Positions 2,896-27,344 of a DNA stretch of 44,010 bases are shown piece after piece. Source of the stretch: Candidatus Andersenbacteria bacterium RIFCSPHIGHO2_02_FULL_46_16 (lineage in GTDB: Bacteria; Patescibacteriota; Andersenbacteria; UBA10190); the NCBI GenBank assembly GCA_001817065.1, contig MHHQ01000030.1, positions 1 to 44,010 of the forward strand, in the 5' to 3' direction. The notes beneath the pieces were generated by a model. The model had not been told where the DNA came from and ran no database searches. It saw only the letters and a list, made by a program, of their open reading frames with translations. The first letter of the stretch is position 1, and each line of letters opens with the position of its first letter. The position numbers and the translations under genes are program-made.

Positions 2896-2928
2896 AACAA
2901 AAATCCGCTTATTAAACGGATTTTTGTT
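2896..2928 (-). terminator. terminator of the histone-fold gene
   Basis: A perfect 12-bp inverted repeat, AACAAAAATCCG (2896-2907) and CGGATTTTTGTT (2917-2928), with a nine-base loop. It lies 25 bases beyond the stop of the minus-strand histone-like gene. The T-rich tract is mostly inside the 3' arm. Confidence 0.7.
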
Positions 2929-2953: not shown

Positions 2954-3133
2954 TTAGACGTCCTGTGGCTTCACAGTCGCGCGTTTGTTGCGTTGCGCTC
3001 TGCTTGCAGCAGCATCTAATAGGCTTTTCATTTCTTCGTTTAAAGCCCCGATTAACTCGCCAGACATCTTCACATTCTTTCCTTTGAGGTAGGCCCTAAC
3101 TTTGCTGGCTACTACTAAAACTTCACCTTCCAT
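2954..3133 (-). CDS. bacterial histone-fold protein
   Basis: A protein of 59 residues matching the single-domain histone fold: helix 1 (EVLVVASKVRAYLK), loop 1 (GKNVKMS), a long helix 2 (residues 24-48), then the loop 2 signature KRATVKPQDV. R51 and D58 could form the R-D clamp seen in histones, and R51-x-T53 is the usual DNA-contacting pair. Helix 3 is cut to a stub, as in the short bacterial histones of the Bdellovibrio Bd0055 type. The likely role is dimeric DNA binding and nucleoid organisation. The start at 3133 is set by a near-perfect SD (AAAGGAGGTG, complement of 3140-3149), the strongest in the window; an upstream ATG at 3193 has none. Confidence 0.75.
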   Translation of the reverse strand: MEGEVLVVASKVRAYLKGKNVKMSGELIGALNEEMKSLLDAAASRAQRNKRATVKPQDV

Positions 3134-3183
3134 ATAAAACACCTCCTTTGGTATAACATTGTCGTTCTTCCTGCATCGCACAG

Positions 3184-3213
3184 ATTGTACCACTGATAGA
3201 CGAAAACTCTCAA
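3184..3213 (-). promoter_or_regulatory. promoter of the histone-fold gene
   Basis: On the minus strand: TTGAGA (3208-3213), an 18-base spacer, TACAAT (3184-3189). Initiation near 3177 would leave a leader of about 45 bases carrying the strong SD, unlike the leaderless neighbours. Confidence 0.5.
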
Positions 3214-7820: not shown

Positions 7821-8348
7821 ATGGCTCTTACCAGACAGCAAAAAGAGGACATTGTTTCAATAACGCAAGACCAGCTGGGTAGCGCTACATCATTTGTCAT
7901 GATTACATTTGACCAACTCACCGTGGTCGAAATTAACCAACTGCGCGACAAATTACACGCGGTCGGTGGTCGTTTGCGCATAGTGCCCAAGCGGTTGCTG
8001 AAAATCATTTTGCAGCAAATCAAACTTGATTTTGACCCGCTAAGTCTGGTCGGACAAGTCGCCGTGGCGTGGGCCGATGACGCGGTTGCTCCAGCCAAGA
8101 TATTGAATGACTTCGCGAAGAAGAACAAAGAGAAAATACAGTTAATGAGCGGGTCGCTTGAAGGCAACCTACTCACTATTGAGCAAGTTAAAGCTTTAGC
8201 CACCCTGCCTTCCCGCGAGCAATTGCTTAGTCAGCTTGTCAGTGTGCTGACTGGTCCGGCCCGTGGGTTGGTAACAGTCTTGTCAGGTGTGCAGCGCAAT
8301 TTTGTCCAGGTTCTGCAAGCTATAGCTGATAAAAAGACTCCTCAATAG
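7821..8348 (+). CDS. rplJ: ribosomal protein L10 (uL10)
   Basis: A protein of 175 residues. It forms the base of the ribosomal stalk, binding 23S rRNA and carrying L7/L12 dimers on its C-terminal helix. The family start is clear (MALTRQQKEDIV, then VMITFDQLTVVEINQLRDKL), as are GGRLRIVPKRLLKIIL and the C-terminal helices ending VQVLQAIADKK. The order rplJ-rplL is the usual one. No SD precedes it. Expression is probably controlled by the L10 leader and attenuator upstream. Confidence 0.95.
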   Translation: MALTRQQKEDIVSITQDQLGSATSFVMITFDQLTVVEINQLRDKLHAVGGRLRIVPKRLLKIILQQIKLDFDPLSLVGQVAVAWADDAVAPAKILNDFAKKNKEKIQLMSGSLEGNLLTIEQVKALATLPSREQLLSQLVSVLTGPARGLVTVLSGVQRNFVQVLQAIADKKTPQ

Positions 8349-8397: not shown

Positions 8398-8856
8398 ATG
8401 ACAAAAGAAAAAGATAATGGTCAAGAAAAAGACGATACAAAACCAGCCGACAGCCCAGCAGAGGCTGTAGAAGTACCTAAGAAATTCGTCAAGTTGGTCG
8501 AAGAAGTTTCCAGCATGTCTGTGCTTGAATTATCCGCGCTCGTTAAAGTGCTGGAAAAAGAATTTGGTGTATCAGCCGCAGCTCCGGTAACCGTTATGGC
8601 CGCCAATGGGGGAGATAGCGCTAGCAGTGAGGCCGCTCCCGTGAAAACCTCATTTAACATCGTCATTACCAATTCCGGTGCGCAGAAGATCGCTGTTATC
8701 AAGGCAGTCCGCGCCATTACTGAAATTGGCTTAAAAGACGCTAAAGACTTAGTGGATAAAACACCCGCCACTATTAAGGAGAACGTGCCGACAGCTGACG
8801 CTGAAGAAATGAAAAAGAAACTGGAAGAGGCTGGCGCTACCATCGAACTGCAATAA
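8398..8856 (+). CDS. rplL: ribosomal protein L7/L12 (bL12)
   Basis: A protein of 152 residues, longer than the usual 120-130 because of a charged N-terminal extension of about 25 residues rich in Lys, Glu and Asp. The dimerising N-domain ([20 protein letters not shown]), a short Ala-rich hinge, and the factor-binding C-domain ([20 protein letters not shown], then [17 protein letters not shown]) are all present. It recruits translation GTPases to the stalk. It lies 49 bases after rplJ and is closed by the terminator at 8875. Confidence 0.96.
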
Positions 8857-22221: not shown

Positions 22222-22296
22222 GGCCTCTTCGTCTAGCGGCTAGGACACCAGGTTCTCATCCTGGAAACAGGGGTTCAATTCCCCTAGGGGCTACCA
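22222..22296 (+). tRNA. tRNA-Glu (CTC), attachment site of the integrative element
   Basis: Acceptor GGCCTCT pairs with AGGGGCT (with G-U pairs). Anticodon stem CCAGG/CCTGG has loop TTCTCAT (anticodon CTC), T arm AGGGG/CCCCT has TTCAATT, discriminator A, and CCA is encoded at 22294-22296. Its 3' end forms one attachment core, and the antisense strand of its 3' half encodes the last residues of the recombinase. Confidence 0.95.
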
Positions 22297-23797
22297 AATG
22301 TGATTTATTGTCGCCATAGTCCCGAATTGTCTGTAAACATACTGATATTTTCGGGGTTCGACACTTCTCACCATCCCATTCAAGACCTTTCGGGAATAAG
22401 TGGCGTTGGAACTCTACGCGAGGTTCTATTTCTTTGATGATTTCCCATGTCACAGCCGGATTCTCTAGCATCGCCAATCCTTTGTTTATGAGCTGCTGTA
22501 TGTTTACTTCCTGATACTGAAACTTAGCTTGCTCTACCTGTACATCTTCAATTTCGCCGTCTACTTTTGCCTTGCGCTCTATATATTCTGCGCGTTCCAA
22601 TAACTCATACCTAGGATCGTTTATCATGGCGGTCACAATCTTCTCACGCTCCTCGCGCAACATAGCCAGCTTTTTACCAAAACGTGCGCCTTCTTTCTTG
22701 TGCTCGGTCGCTTTACTCTTGGCAATATCCAGCATGACCTTCTTGAAAAGGCTCACGTATTGCTTTTTTGGTTTGATAATTCTCATCACATCTTCAAAGC
22801 TAACATGAACTGTATCTTGTTTGAATGACCGCGCTAGAGGACATGTTTTATTGTGGTGGTGATAGTAAGGATGGCGTTTGCCGGTCTTGCTGGTTGAAAA
22901 GCTGCCTTTGAAATTCATTCCACATTTTGGACATCGCAGGCGCACAGGAAATTCAGGGTTATACTTACTGCGTTGTGGCGCGGGGTTGAACGATTTATCA
23001 TCCACGACTTTAATACGTAAGTACAATTCAGACGGGATGAGTGGTTCGTGACTGCCATTTATTGTTTCGCCAAAGGCTCGCATCGTGCCGTGATAGAAAG
23101 GATTGTGCATAATACGCCAGACTGATTGATTGTACGGATCATTGCCGCCGCGCATCTTAAAACCTCGTTTCCGCAATCCGTTCGCTATTGCTTCGTAACT
23201 ATATCCGGCAGCACGTTGTTTGGCCGCCCAGGTAATAAGAGAGCCGTATTCGGGATGCGGCACACATATGGTTTTGCCGGTTCCTGCCTCTTTGCTTTTT
23301 ATGTAGCCGGTCGGTGCCGGAAATGGCCAGACGCCTTCCTTAAAGCGTTTATACATGCCGTCACGAGTTCGTTCAGCACGAATAGCATTGTCGAGTTCTG
23401 CAACACCCCAAAGGATGCCTCGCATGAATTTTCCCACCGGAGAGTCATCAATGTTCTCAGTAGCAGAGGTTAGCGCGACCTGCGCTTGAGAGAGCTTATA
23501 CATGATCTTGTGTTGGTCGTCAGTGTTGCGAGAAAGGCGGTCTAGTTTGTAGACGATCAAAGCATCAATACGATCCTTGTTGGTTTGCAGGTACGCCAGC
23601 ATGTTCAGTAGCTCTGGCCGATCCGCGAACTTAGCTGATTCACCCTCTTCTTTAAAAATGCGGATTATATTGAATCCTTCTTTTTCTGCGTGGGCTTTGC
23701 ATCGTTCAACCTGCGTGTCGAGACTGGTTCCTTTTTCGGCTTGCTTATCGGTGCTCACCCGAACATAGAAGACCGCATTTTTTGTTTCCTGGCTCAT
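22256..23797 (-). CDS. large serine recombinase (integrase)
   Basis: A protein of 513 residues. The resolvase catalytic domain (about 1-150) has nucleophile S15 in YVRVSTDKQ, plus KLDRLSRNTDD and the helix E (GVAELDNAIRAERT). The recombinase DNA-binding domain follows (about 165-270, YSYEAIANGLRKRGF and NPFYHGTM), then a zinc ribbon (LRCPKCGMNF, with later Cys) and a coiled coil (about 365-440). It catalyses integration and excision through a Ser-DNA intermediate. The final residues (HLVAPRGIEPLFPG) are antisense to tRNA-Glu, so this C-terminus is created by the junction. An extended structured region precedes it. Confidence 0.93.
   Translation of the reverse strand: MSQETKNAVFYVRVSTDKQAEKGTSLDTQVERCKAHAEKEGFNIIRIFKEEGESAKFADRPELLNMLAYLQTNKDRIDALIVYKLDRLSRNTDDQHKIMYKLSQAQVALTSATENIDDSPVGKFMRGILWGVAELDNAIRAERTRDGMYKRFKEGVWPFPAPTGYIKSKEAGTGKTICVPHPEYGSLITWAAKQRAAGYSYEAIANGLRKRGFKMRGGNDPYNQSVWRIMHNPFYHGTMRAFGETINGSHEPLIPSELYLRIKVVDDKSFNPAPQRSKYNPEFPVRLRCPKCGMNFKGSFSTSKTGKRHPYYHHHNKTCPLARSFKQDTVHVSFEDVMRIIKPKKQYVSLFKKVMLDIAKSKATEHKKEGARFGKKLAMLREEREKIVTAMINDPRYELLERAEYIERKAKVDGEIEDVQVEQAKFQYQEVNIQQLINKGLAMLENPAVTWEIIKEIEPRVEFQRHLFPKGLEWDGEKCRTPKISVCLQTIRDYGDNKSHLVAPRGIEPLFPG
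22288..22297 (+). repeat. left attachment core at the tRNA-Glu 3' end
   Basis: GGGCTACCAA covers the last acceptor bases, the CCA and one more base. The identical sequence is at 31707-31716. Confidence 0.6.
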
Positions 23798-23822
23798 ATA
23801 CTCTTTAAATTACCATACAAAA

Positions 23823-23908
23823 ATGGACGTACTGGTTGACCCGAATACCGTAAGGCTTCGGCAGTACGCCCATCAAAAAAGCCTACGGATGTTATTTTTC
23901 GGGTCAAC
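23823..23908 (-). ncRNA. pseudoknot-like structured leader or terminator before the recombinase
   Basis: Helix A: GTTGACCCGAA (23835-23845) with TTCGGGTCAAC (23898-23908). Helix B nested in A: CCGTAAGGCTT (23848-23858) with AAGCCTACGG (23879-23888), one bulge. Helix C: ATGGACGTACTG (23823-23834) with CAGTACGCCCAT (23862-23873), one G-U. Helix C joins the loop of B to sequence outside A, so it forms either a pseudoknot or an alternative fold. On the minus strand helix C is followed by TTTTT, so it can act as a terminator after the ATPase gene or an attenuator before the recombinase. Confidence 0.5.
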
Positions 23909-23970
23909 AGCTTCATTATACTATTTTTTCCATTAAGGCGCATATACTGTCAGATTTGTTTTATCAATTA

Positions 23971-25308
23971 TCAGTCTTCTTTTGATAAAGTCTTTTCGAC
24001 GCTGTGCAATCGGAGTTGCTGGTATTCGTCTTCCAGGAACCAGTGGAATTCGGGCTTTAAGGTTATTTCACCCTCAGGGCGACCTACGGTTTCATCAGGA
24101 TCGCCGGACATGTCCACCACTTTGAGGATTGCAAGCGCTCGCATCTCCTTTAGAGCAGTAGGCTTTGAACAGGTCAATGCTTCTTCAACATCACTCGTGC
24201 TCATTGTCCCGCCGTATTCGAGCAGTTTATTAAACAATTTAGCCCTAGCAGGAGGGGCACTGTCAGCAGACAAGGCTAGTGCTGGCTTTAAGTCTGATTG
24301 CGCTATGGTATTGCGACCATAGATTATCGCGTGTCCTCTCGCTAGGTTATAGAAGCAAGTCAGTATACGATCCGGCTTTTCAATAGTCGGAGCGGTGAAG
24401 TTATACCGCGTCCCACCCTCTGCTTTTTCTTCCCACACATTGATTGTGCCTCGAAGTCTCGCCAGTAGACGCGCGCACCGCACTAAAACCTTTATCAATT
24501 CAGGGGCATCGCCTTCCTTGTCCCACTCGATTCCGGCCTGATGTTTGTGCCAGAGAGAGTAAATGAATTCTTTTGTCGCATCCCTACACTCATATTCCTT
24601 GTCCTTATAATTCGTTTCCCGAAGCTGGGTAACGTATTGATTGTCGTCCTTATCAGGGCTGTTTAGATTCAAGAAGAACAAACGCGACCCCAAATTGCCC
24701 ATTAACTTCCATACTCTTGGATTCATAGGCGTTGATCCGGCCAAGATGTTAAATAGGTAATCTCCAGTGTATTCACGCTGGCCGTGAACCCCTGTATCGG
24801 TCTGCAAACCTTCACCATCCAAGACTCTCGTTAAGACTCCAAGGCTCTTTAATAGGTCGTCATCACGCTGTCCAAAGATTGGTGCTAAATCGCGGATCAG
24901 GAATAGCTTGTGACGGATTCTCGGCAGTAGATCAATCTTTTCCAAGTCCTTGCGCTTCACATTCGTGGCATTGCTGACAAATGAAGCCGGAGTGAAAGTA
25001 TCGGTCGAATAGGTTATATCAGGAATATCAGAGAAAAAGTTTATCGTGATTGTTTTACCCGCACTCGGAACATCAACGAGTACAAGCGCAAAGGGATTTC
25101 GCACGTCCTTTATGAGTATTTGGGCTAGGACCGATAGGCCGACCTCTGCCGCAAAGCGATAATCAGGAAATAGCTTATCAATGGTCTCACCCCACTGGTC
25201 AATGTTTATGTGCCGGAGTGGCCTCGGTACTTTTTTAATGCGTGAATATGTCTCGACTCTCGCCTTATCAGCAATATCAAGCGTTCTTTTTACTTCACTT
25301 TCCTTCAT
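23971..25308 (-). CDS. P-loop ATPase, probable replicative helicase or initiator of the element
   Basis: A protein of 445 residues. Walker A is DVPSAGKT (about residues 79-86), a Walker B-like strand is KLFLIRDLAP, a sensor-like strand FNILAGSTP follows, and an Arg sits in GSRLFFLNL. This layout suggests an AAA+ or superfamily 3-type helicase core, with a C-terminal winged helix (STSDVEEALTCSKPTALKEM). Its start overlaps the stop of the CHC2 protein by four bases (ATGA), so the two are translationally coupled. Primase-type zinc finger plus ATPase is the usual replication module of phages and integrative elements. The exact family is not recognised. Confidence 0.65.
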   Translation of the reverse strand: MKESEVKRTLDIADKARVETYSRIKKVPRPLRHINIDQWGETIDKLFPDYRFAAEVGLSVLAQILIKDVRNPFALVLVDVPSAGKTITINFFSDIPDITYSTDTFTPASFVSNATNVKRKDLEKIDLLPRIRHKLFLIRDLAPIFGQRDDDLLKSLGVLTRVLDGEGLQTDTGVHGQREYTGDYLFNILAGSTPMNPRVWKLMGNLGSRLFFLNLNSPDKDDNQYVTQLRETNYKDKEYECRDATKEFIYSLWHKHQAGIEWDKEGDAPELIKVLVRCARLLARLRGTINVWEEKAEGGTRYNFTAPTIEKPDRILTCFYNLARGHAIIYGRNTIAQSDLKPALALSADSAPPARAKLFNKLLEYGGTMSTSDVEEALTCSKPTALKEMRALAILKVVDMSGDPDETVGRPEGEITLKPEFHWFLEDEYQQLRLHSVEKTLSKED

Positions 25309-25979
25309 AGGCGTTGCAATTCCACTACCGCTTCACGGAAGCCGCAATTACGAATCTTTTGAACAAACGTGATAACATCGCCACCTTCGCTACAAGCAAA
25401 ACACCACCAGCGTTTGTTCTCTGGGTAAACAACAAATGACGGTGAGCGGTCATCATGGAATGGGCATCGGCCTTTGTGTGTTCTCCCGCTCTGGCGTAGT
25501 TCAACCCATCGGCTTACCACGTCCACAATATCTAGCCGGTTCTTGAGTGTACTTACGTCAATATGGCCAGGAATGTCAGCGGGTTTGGTAAAAATCTTCT
25601 GCTGCTCCAATAGCTCTAAACAGTGTTGTAGTCGGCGAATGTGCCACTCAATCTGCCTCAGCTCCTGCTGCATTTTAGGGAGCATGACTTCATAGAGGCC
25701 GCGTAGTGAAATTTGATTTTCTATGATTGGTAATGTCAGGATAATACGTTCTAGCTCTATGATCTGTGCTTTCTTGCGCTGCCATTCCCGACAGTAGCGT
25801 TTCAGGTTGTCGCAGACAGGCTCACGGGCATCTTCACAAAATGTCTCAATCGCAATCTCCGGTGTAATCTCTGGAGCTGTGTACTCTTGCGCTCCCTCAG
25901 AACTAGACGGTACATTAAGGGCATGAAAAGACTCTCGTTTGCCACGCGGGTCTTTTTCTTTTTGTAACCTCTCACTCAT
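25305..25979 (-). CDS. CHC2 primase-type zinc-finger protein without primase core
   Basis: A protein of 224 residues. The C-terminal 75 residues match the DnaG zinc-binding domain: a lead helix (LKNRLDIVDVVSRWVEL), then CPFHDDRSPSFVV and WWCFACSEGGDVI, giving Cys-His-Cys-Cys zinc ligands. The N-terminal 140 residues are charged and helical. No TOPRIM or polymerase domain is present, so it cannot make primers alone; it may tether a host primase or recognise the template. The start at 25979 has AAAGGAGG six bases upstream; longer frames do not. Confidence 0.8.
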   Translation of the reverse strand: MSERLQKEKDPRGKRESFHALNVPSSSEGAQEYTAPEITPEIAIETFCEDAREPVCDNLKRYCREWQRKKAQIIELERIILTLPIIENQISLRGLYEVMLPKMQQELRQIEWHIRRLQHCLELLEQQKIFTKPADIPGHIDVSTLKNRLDIVDVVSRWVELRQSGRTHKGRCPFHDDRSPSFVVYPENKRWWCFACSEGGDVITFVQKIRNCGFREAVVELQRL

Positions 25980-26118
25980 CACGAGCCTCCTTTCGCGCCT
26001 GCTCATACGCTTTCTCCCCAATGAAATAGAAGAAGGCGAGAACATCCTCCAGCTCTTTGTCACTTACTTCGTAGCCCTGCGGCAATGCCTCGCGGGCTTG
26101 TTCAAGCGTCAAAGTCAT
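25972..26118 (-). CDS. 48-residue coupled micro-ORF
   Basis: MTLTLEQAREALPQG, then an acidic helical protein with AFFYFIGEKAYEQARKEARDE at the end. The ATG at 26118 overlaps the previous stop by four bases (ATGA), and its stop overlaps the CHC2 protein start by eight. AAGGTGA lies about six bases before the start. Unbroken coupling on both sides supports real translation. No known family. Confidence 0.6.
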   Translation of the reverse strand: MTLTLEQAREALPQGYEVSDKELEDVLAFFYFIGEKAYEQARKEARDE

Positions 26119-26357
26119 AACCGCTCACCTTCGTAAATGAGCTGCTTGGCTCGTCTTTCCGCTGCCCAGAAGTCTGAGGGGTCACAGCGTAGTTCTCCTC
26201 GCTTGAGCTGGGTTAAGTTCTGTTGTAATCGCGGGCTGTCCTCAAATACAAAAACGACTCTCCTCGGATTGCTGGTATCCGTTGAGAGAATTGGATGCTT
26301 CTGCATCAGCAAAACACTGGCTGTCAGAAAATCGCTTGTTTCGTATTCTATCGTCAT
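26115..26357 (-). CDS. DUF5659-like small protein
   Basis: A protein of 80 residues resembling DUF5659: TSDFLTASVLLMQKHPIL, SNPRRVVFVFEDSP, then GELRCDPSDFWAAER. Proteins of this kind are common next to primase and helicase genes in mobile elements of CPR and other bacteria; the biochemical role is unknown. It heads a chain of four overlapping genes. Its SD is buried in a hairpin at 26368-26387. Confidence 0.7.
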   Translation of the reverse strand: MTIEYETSDFLTASVLLMQKHPILSTDTSNPRRVVFVFEDSPRLQQNLTQLKRGELRCDPSDFWAAERRAKQLIYEGERL

Positions 26358-26367
26358 AAATAATTCT

Positions 26368-26387
26368 GCCTCCCATTCTAGGGAGGC
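26368..26387 (-). promoter_or_regulatory. hairpin sequestering the SD of the replication operon
   Basis: GCCTCCC (26368-26374) pairs perfectly with GGGAGGC (26381-26387) around six bases. On the minus strand GGGAGG, the only SD before the ATG at 26357 (11 bases away), is the 3' arm. There is no T tail, so it is not a good terminator. The stem could gate translation of the operon. Confidence 0.45.
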
Positions 26388-26419
26388 TGCGCAAAGAAAC
26401 GACGAGAAAAAAGCGAGAT

Positions 26420-27295
26420 TTACGTGGTATTTTTACGATCAACTTTCTGGTTACCGCAACGTAACGCATAACCCTGCTTTGGCTTGGTCACGATCATATT
26501 TTCTATATCCCTGTCATCCATGCCAGCGTCGCGCAGTATGTTCTTGAGATCACGCAGAATAGTTTGTATTACACGGCCGTGACTCTGATGGGGTAACACC
26601 TTAATTTCTCTTTCGCCAACTTTTTTAGTTCCTGTCTCCGGTGCAGACAAGTCGAATTCCGCACCCAACTCTAAGTAGGTAACAGTATTTGGCTGTTTTT
26701 CCAACAAAAGCTTAAGCATTCTCATTGGCTTCGTTTCTGCTGAAATCTCCTTGGCTTTATGCTTATCGTATTGCACTGTGCCCTTGCTAAAGTCCGCCGC
26801 CAGTCCGGCGCATATCAATGTATCTTCCTTGCTAGGAGATTGGGGCTGTTTATTACCGTCTAGAACCTGGACTCTGCTTTTCCTTACCGCCTCCTCCATG
26901 TGCTTTAGTTCTTCAAAGTCCTTTATCTCTAGTAGGAATATATTGTCACTCTCTTCTTTCGAGACGTGAACGCCATAATGTTTGATTGAGCTAATAGAAT
27001 ACGCTTGGGTTAACCAAGAATCATTGCCTTCGAACAATGGCATCGTAATTTTCTCTGTCCTCGCAACCCTGCCCTCTGGGTCCACTTTGCGGAGGACCGC
27101 GACTATATCCTCGTATTCAAAACCCTCTTTTCGGAATCCGTTCAATGGGATTTTATTGAATGTCAGCCGATTAACTGCTCTTATCTCCACCTCGTCCATG
27201 AGGATTTTCAGAACCTTCTGGACCCTCTCCAGGTTGCCAGGGGAGAGTTCGGTAAGCCAAGTATATTGCGTATTTATCTTCATTCTCATTTGCAT
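26420..27295 (-). CDS. winged-helix regulator of the element (OmpR-type C-domain)
   Basis: A protein of 291 residues. The C-terminal 95 residues match the OmpR/PhoB winged helix: MRMLKLLLEKQPNTVTYLEL, VIQTILRDLKNILRD, and IENMIVTKPKQGYAL where the wing motif is expected. The N-terminal 190 residues have mixed alpha/beta character, with no receiver phospho-Asp motif that I can identify. It could be the element's repressor or replication initiator. It diverges from the cargo genes across a structured region. The start at 27295 is chosen by length; ATGs at 27289 and 27283 are possible. Confidence 0.6.
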   Translation of the reverse strand: MQMRMKINTQYTWLTELSPGNLERVQKVLKILMDEVEIRAVNRLTFNKIPLNGFRKEGFEYEDIVAVLRKVDPEGRVARTEKITMPLFEGNDSWLTQAYSISSIKHYGVHVSKEESDNIFLLEIKDFEELKHMEEAVRKSRVQVLDGNKQPQSPSKEDTLICAGLAADFSKGTVQYDKHKAKEISAETKPMRMLKLLLEKQPNTVTYLELGAEFDLSAPETGTKKVGEREIKVLPHQSHGRVIQTILRDLKNILRDAGMDDRDIENMIVTKPKQGYALRCGNQKVDRKNTT

Positions 27296-27344
27296 ATTTG
27301 TTCTATTCAGGGTACACCAAAAACACAACGAAATATAGCCTAAA

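Follow-up and report, generated by a model that had tools for sequence, protein, structure and literature searches.

A probable face-to-face-type histone encoded in Candidatus Andersenbacteria, members of the Patescibacteria that also encode HU

To our knowledge, detailed characterisation is limited to two bacterial histones, and a literature search for histones in Patescibacteria or Peribacteria returned nothing relevant. HLp of Leptospira perolatii forms a face-to-face (FtF) tetramer, around which about 60 bp of DNA are wrapped (PMC12701072), whereas HBb (Bd0055) of Bdellovibrio bacteriovorus is a dimer, which bends or coats DNA (PMC10627809, PMC11317129). The defining feature of FtF histones is a predicted or observed face-to-face homotetramer, and dimer histones lack the Arg and Asn residues that join the FtF dimers (PMC11390915). 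The archaeal HTkC of Thermococcus kodakarensis is also of the FtF tetramer type, with a truncated helix 3 (PDB 9F2C; PMC11390915). In the available main texts of PMC10627809 and PMC11390915, bacterial FtF histones are mainly those of Spirochaetota, Planctomycetota, Bdellovibrionota and Myxococcota, and the words Patescibacteria, CPR and candidate phyla are absent; Patescibacteria are likewise not named in the available text of the HLp paper (PMC12701072).

The histone gene considered here occupies positions 2954–3133 on the minus strand of the window, i.e., the whole stretch of 44,010 nucleotides analysed, which is contig 30 of an Andersenbacteria genome (1.36 Mb, 98.5% complete, 32 contigs, 2% contamination). 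The coordinates given in the preliminary description were correct, the strand being added here, and the CPR host suggested there is a member of the Patescibacteria. The reading frame extends from ATG (3133–3131) to TAA (2956–2954) and encodes 59 residues (MEGEVLVVASKVRAYLKGKNVKMSGELIGALNEEMKSLLDAAASRAQRNKRATVKPQDV) with a net charge of about +3 and a pI of 9.8. A reading of 79 residues from GTG at 3193 was dropped, since both the Shine-Dalgarno (SD) sequence and the orthologues match the shorter form. Upstream, about 150 bp belong to the gene alone, and on its 3' side a terminator-like hairpin precedes the next gene.

The window encodes a real bacterial histone with a single fold. The AlphaFold2 model (30 aligned sequences, mean pLDDT 90.5) was obtained for the single chain and contains helix 1 at residues 9–18, helix 2 at 27–48 and a one-turn helix 3 at 56–58, where the chain stops. 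The histone fold and the truncated helix 3 read earlier from the sequence were thus recovered; of the helix-strand-helix-strand-helix order proposed with them the strands were lost, the model being helix-loop-helix-loop-helix with no strand of at least three residues. A helix 3 of 3–4 residues together with a shortened helix 2 is the arrangement of the FtF alpha3 histones; the helix 3 of about 10 residues and the longer helix 2 of archaeal nucleosomal histones (HMf/HTk) are not seen in the model. HLp was the first match of the model in Foldseek (TM 0.90, rmsd 0.8 Å), followed by HTkC and HBb (TM 0.85–0.89), far above eukaryotic histones, and the four distinct PDB chains matched by phmmer were all alpha3 histones. 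Neither a different fold nor a better match to an unrelated family, either of which would have spoken against a histone, was found. As scans of the single protein against Pfam and NCBIfam gave nothing significant, the protein was assigned to its family through sequence, profile and fold searches of the PDB. The DUF1931 pseudodimer (PF09123), which consists of two fused folds, was rejected, the protein having 59 residues, one fold and no PF09123 match; weak matches to PF09123 were seen in 9 of 31 histone relatives.

Residues R45, N49, R51 and D58 correspond to R49, N53, R55 and D62 of HLp and are invariant in these 31 relatives, drawn from Andersenbacteria, other Patescibacteria, Planctomycetota and other bins. 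The dimer–dimer residues of the FtF profile, Arg48 and Asn52 (HLp R49 and N53), are represented by R45 and N49, and the DNA-binding lysine of helix 1 (profile K16, HLp K15) by the invariant K11. The loop-2 signature pointed out previously is indeed conserved, and the RxTxxxxD motif (R51, T53, D58) is invariant in the same 31 relatives. The HLp DNA contacts A13, S14, K15, K17, K21 and G29 have their counterparts in A9, S10, K11, R13, K17 and G25. Identity to HLp (PDB 9QT0, 9QT1, 9QT2; PMC12701072) amounts to 47% over 58 residues, and the two proteins have in common the R/N/R tetramer residues, the RD clamp, most DNA-contact residues and the C-terminal end. Unlike HLp, the window histone has no N-terminal tail and is not encoded beside smc; the DNA contacts T27 and T56 are replaced by M23 and A52, and the interface residues S52, T61 and F63 by R48, Q57 and V59. 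HTkC, at 33–34% identity, shares the Arg at the tetramer position, but the Asn is replaced by Glu and loop 1 is longer by two residues.

By homology with HLp, formation of a tetramer and DNA wrapping are probable. Two chains would pair head-to-tail via helix 2, and the resulting dimers could then associate in twos to give a stable FtF tetramer, with two separate interfaces to which the end of helix 2 on the C-terminal side, loop 2 and helix 3 contribute. DNA would be wrapped non-specifically on the tetramer's basic rim, which takes up about 60 bp in HLp, with local compaction as the result. The A-S-K residues that open helix 1, R13 and K17, and loops 1 and 2 could hold the DNA in place. The reading of the whole as an alpha3 histone of FtF type, whose tetramer wraps DNA and which is probably abundant beside HU, is considered likely.

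The SD sequence AAGGAGGTG (3140–3148, minus strand) lies 6 bases before the ATG and is a 9-base match to the 16S 3' end, the longest among the gene starts of the window. The runner-up has 7 bases, belongs to an internal start and has a poor spacing of 3, and nearly all others have 3–4 bases, close to the chance level, so that the earlier statement of the strongest SD in the window holds for the window. Among random 15-mers, 0.12% reach a 7-base match. The same AAGGAGGTG is found 6–7 bases before the ATG in all nine Andersenbacteria orthologues. Among 112 ORFs with 200 residues or more from the same loci and the window, a set picked mechanically and including non-genes, the SD never exceeds 7 bases. 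In histone relatives outside Andersenbacteria, the SD has 4–8 bases. Throughout the genome, AGGAGGTG at 3–8 bases before ATG occurs at 17 sites, and the reversed control yields 9. About 14 of the 17 precede plausible ORFs, and the genes behind such sites encode HU, a prepilin, secreted or surface proteins, small cysteine-rich proteins and the histone. SD motifs are scarce at gene starts generally, which makes the small number of genes with a long SD conspicuous; the ribosomal L10-like and L7/L12-like genes (7821–8348 and 8398–8856) have no SD beyond chance.

The promoter of the gene (3184–3213, minus strand) consists of TTGAGA, an 18-base spacer and a TG-extended TACAAT. A promoter scan alone was at the chance level (3 found vs. 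2.1 expected), and it is the comparison of orthologues that backs the promoter proposed in the preliminary description: TTGAG ... TGGTACAAT is common to relatives, and the extended -10 pattern TTGAG ... TGGTAnAAT is present in several orthologues. The terminator also proposed there corresponds to a terminator-like inverted repeat, AACAAAAATCCG / CGGATTTTTGTT (2896–2928, minus strand), with arms of 12 bp and T runs, located after the stop codon and usable on both strands, and a strong hairpin occupies the same place in 9/9 orthologues. A separate observation concerns the leader. Directly after the presumed -10 box, 24–33 bases before the SD, the leaders of L002, L003, L005, L006 and L007 carry GATGTGGAA(A)A; of the six exact copies of GATGTGGAA present in about 175 kb, five belong to histone leaders. 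In four of these, TGTGGAAAA fits the DnaA-box consensus TTWTNCACA (0.007 expected per 45-base stretch). In the window, the place of the relatives' element GATGTGGAAAA is 3166–3176 (minus strand), where the sequence is degenerate (GATGCAGGAAG).

A dedicated promoter, a 9-base SD and a terminator characterise a separate, strongly translated gene, hence probably an abundant nucleoid protein. Strong translation is likely from these sequence signals, and abundance, for which the SD and the promoter speak, appears fairly probable. HU is encoded in all 13 genomes of the class; the histone therefore adds to HU and would work beside it. Replacement of HU by the histone, as in Leptospira, was rejected, since HU is encoded in 13/13 class members and in 67 of the 74 genomes of family f63 discussed below. 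The histone itself is found in 9 of the 13 class genomes (8/11 good genomes, 6/9 genera). It is absent from the other four, cleanly so in G008, where the CAP-like and sortase-like neighbours are retained about 40 bp apart, which looks like a clean loss. The gene is thus not indispensable, as this sister genome is 99% complete and keeps the neighbours.

A protein of FtF fold could also be a minor or specialised DNA-binding protein, such as a regulator or a stress or life-stage factor, and not a general organiser. The presence of HU in every class member, the histone-free G008 and the weak expression possible for related histones, as for the ZZ histone (PMC11390915), agree with such a role. The exceptional SD of 9/9 orthologues and the promoter and hairpin conserved among them argue against it, as does strong purifying selection on the protein, synonymous differences (pS) being far above non-synonymous ones (pN) in every pair listed (e.g., 0.78 vs. 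0.14 between the window and L003, and 0.39 vs. 0.04 within the closest pair). This explanation is rather unlikely.

An abundant FtF histone also has to be weighed against a dimer histone like Bd0055/HBb (PDB 8FVX, 8CMP), which would bend or coat DNA with no wrapping. HBb was among the comparisons proposed initially, and it has the same alpha3 fold (TM 0.87–0.89, 35% identity); the RD clamp, the helix-1 S-K motif and the N-terminal stretch E-V-L-V-V-x-S-K-V are also common to both proteins. The nearest type, however, is HLp by sequence, profile, fold and FtF residues. HBb has one extra residue in loop 1 and Ser and Asp in place of the FtF Arg and Asn, which dimer histones lack, whereas both R45 and N49 are present here. 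Sequence and profile scores are far closer to HLp: 50 bits (E 1.6e-12) vs. 18 bits (E 0.04) for HBb in phmmer with the single protein, and 96 vs. 48 bits with the family profile against PDB. In a tree of 58 columns, in which few columns and long branches make details unsure, HLp and the Andersenbacteria histones are on one side of a supported branch, and HBb, HTkC and the f63 histones on the other. A dimer histone is therefore improbable.

Contamination or recent transfer from another phylum, with no lasting role, is extremely improbable: bacterial histones are patchy, surveys warn of contamination (PMC10627809) and the host assembly has 32 contigs and 2% contamination, but the gene lies inside a 44-kb contig amid housekeeping genes, the orthologues from 6/9 genera form one clade, and shared synteny within the family largely refutes this explanation. 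The genomes of family f1 that were read share one gene order, namely mannose-1-phosphate guanylyltransferase-like, CAP-like, histone and sortase-like (names assigned by reading sequences, not by search); in family f2 the histone is located elsewhere. The window also contains a probable integrated element (22256–27328), judged by reading sequences, with genes for a large serine recombinase-like protein (22256–23797), an ATPase/helicase-like protein (23971–25308) and a primase-like zinc-finger ORF (25305–26063).

Among 380 Patescibacteria genomes, a histone match was found in 26, concentrated in Andersenbacteria and in the family designated f63 (74 genomes: G167, G380–G438 and others). Within f63, the histone is present in 68/74 genomes (55 of 57 good ones) and in 37/40 genera, and an FtF-type histone is close to a core gene of this whole CPR family. 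The FtF Arg/Asn pair is present in most f63 singlet histones read; L074 and L081 read R-A-K-E-N, with the pair intact. Tandem doublets, with two complete alpha3 folds per ORF, occur in G167 (L101:3834–4298, plus strand), G368 (L103:4254–4619, minus strand), G233 (L102 and L077) and G413 (L132). The FtF Arg is missing from the N-terminal half of the f63 doublets (KAAQANDRKTV), so that their dimer–dimer interface may be asymmetric or one-sided.

The histone is of a known kind (FtF), and the lineage appears to be new for it. A broader proposal, which is rather doubtful as a whole, would be that in two separate clades of Patescibacteria a long-standing, strongly translated FtF histone wraps DNA into small nucleosome-like beads beside HU, its synthesis in Andersenbacteria perhaps being tied to replication via the element that resembles a DnaA box and lies where transcription presumably starts. 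The FtF histone of Andersenbacteria, together with the near-universal one of f63, widens the range of these proteins into the small-genome CPR bacteria. Andersenbacteria encode HU, unlike Leptospira, which has none, and an HU-containing host is a natural setting in which to ask what such a protein contributes on top of HU.
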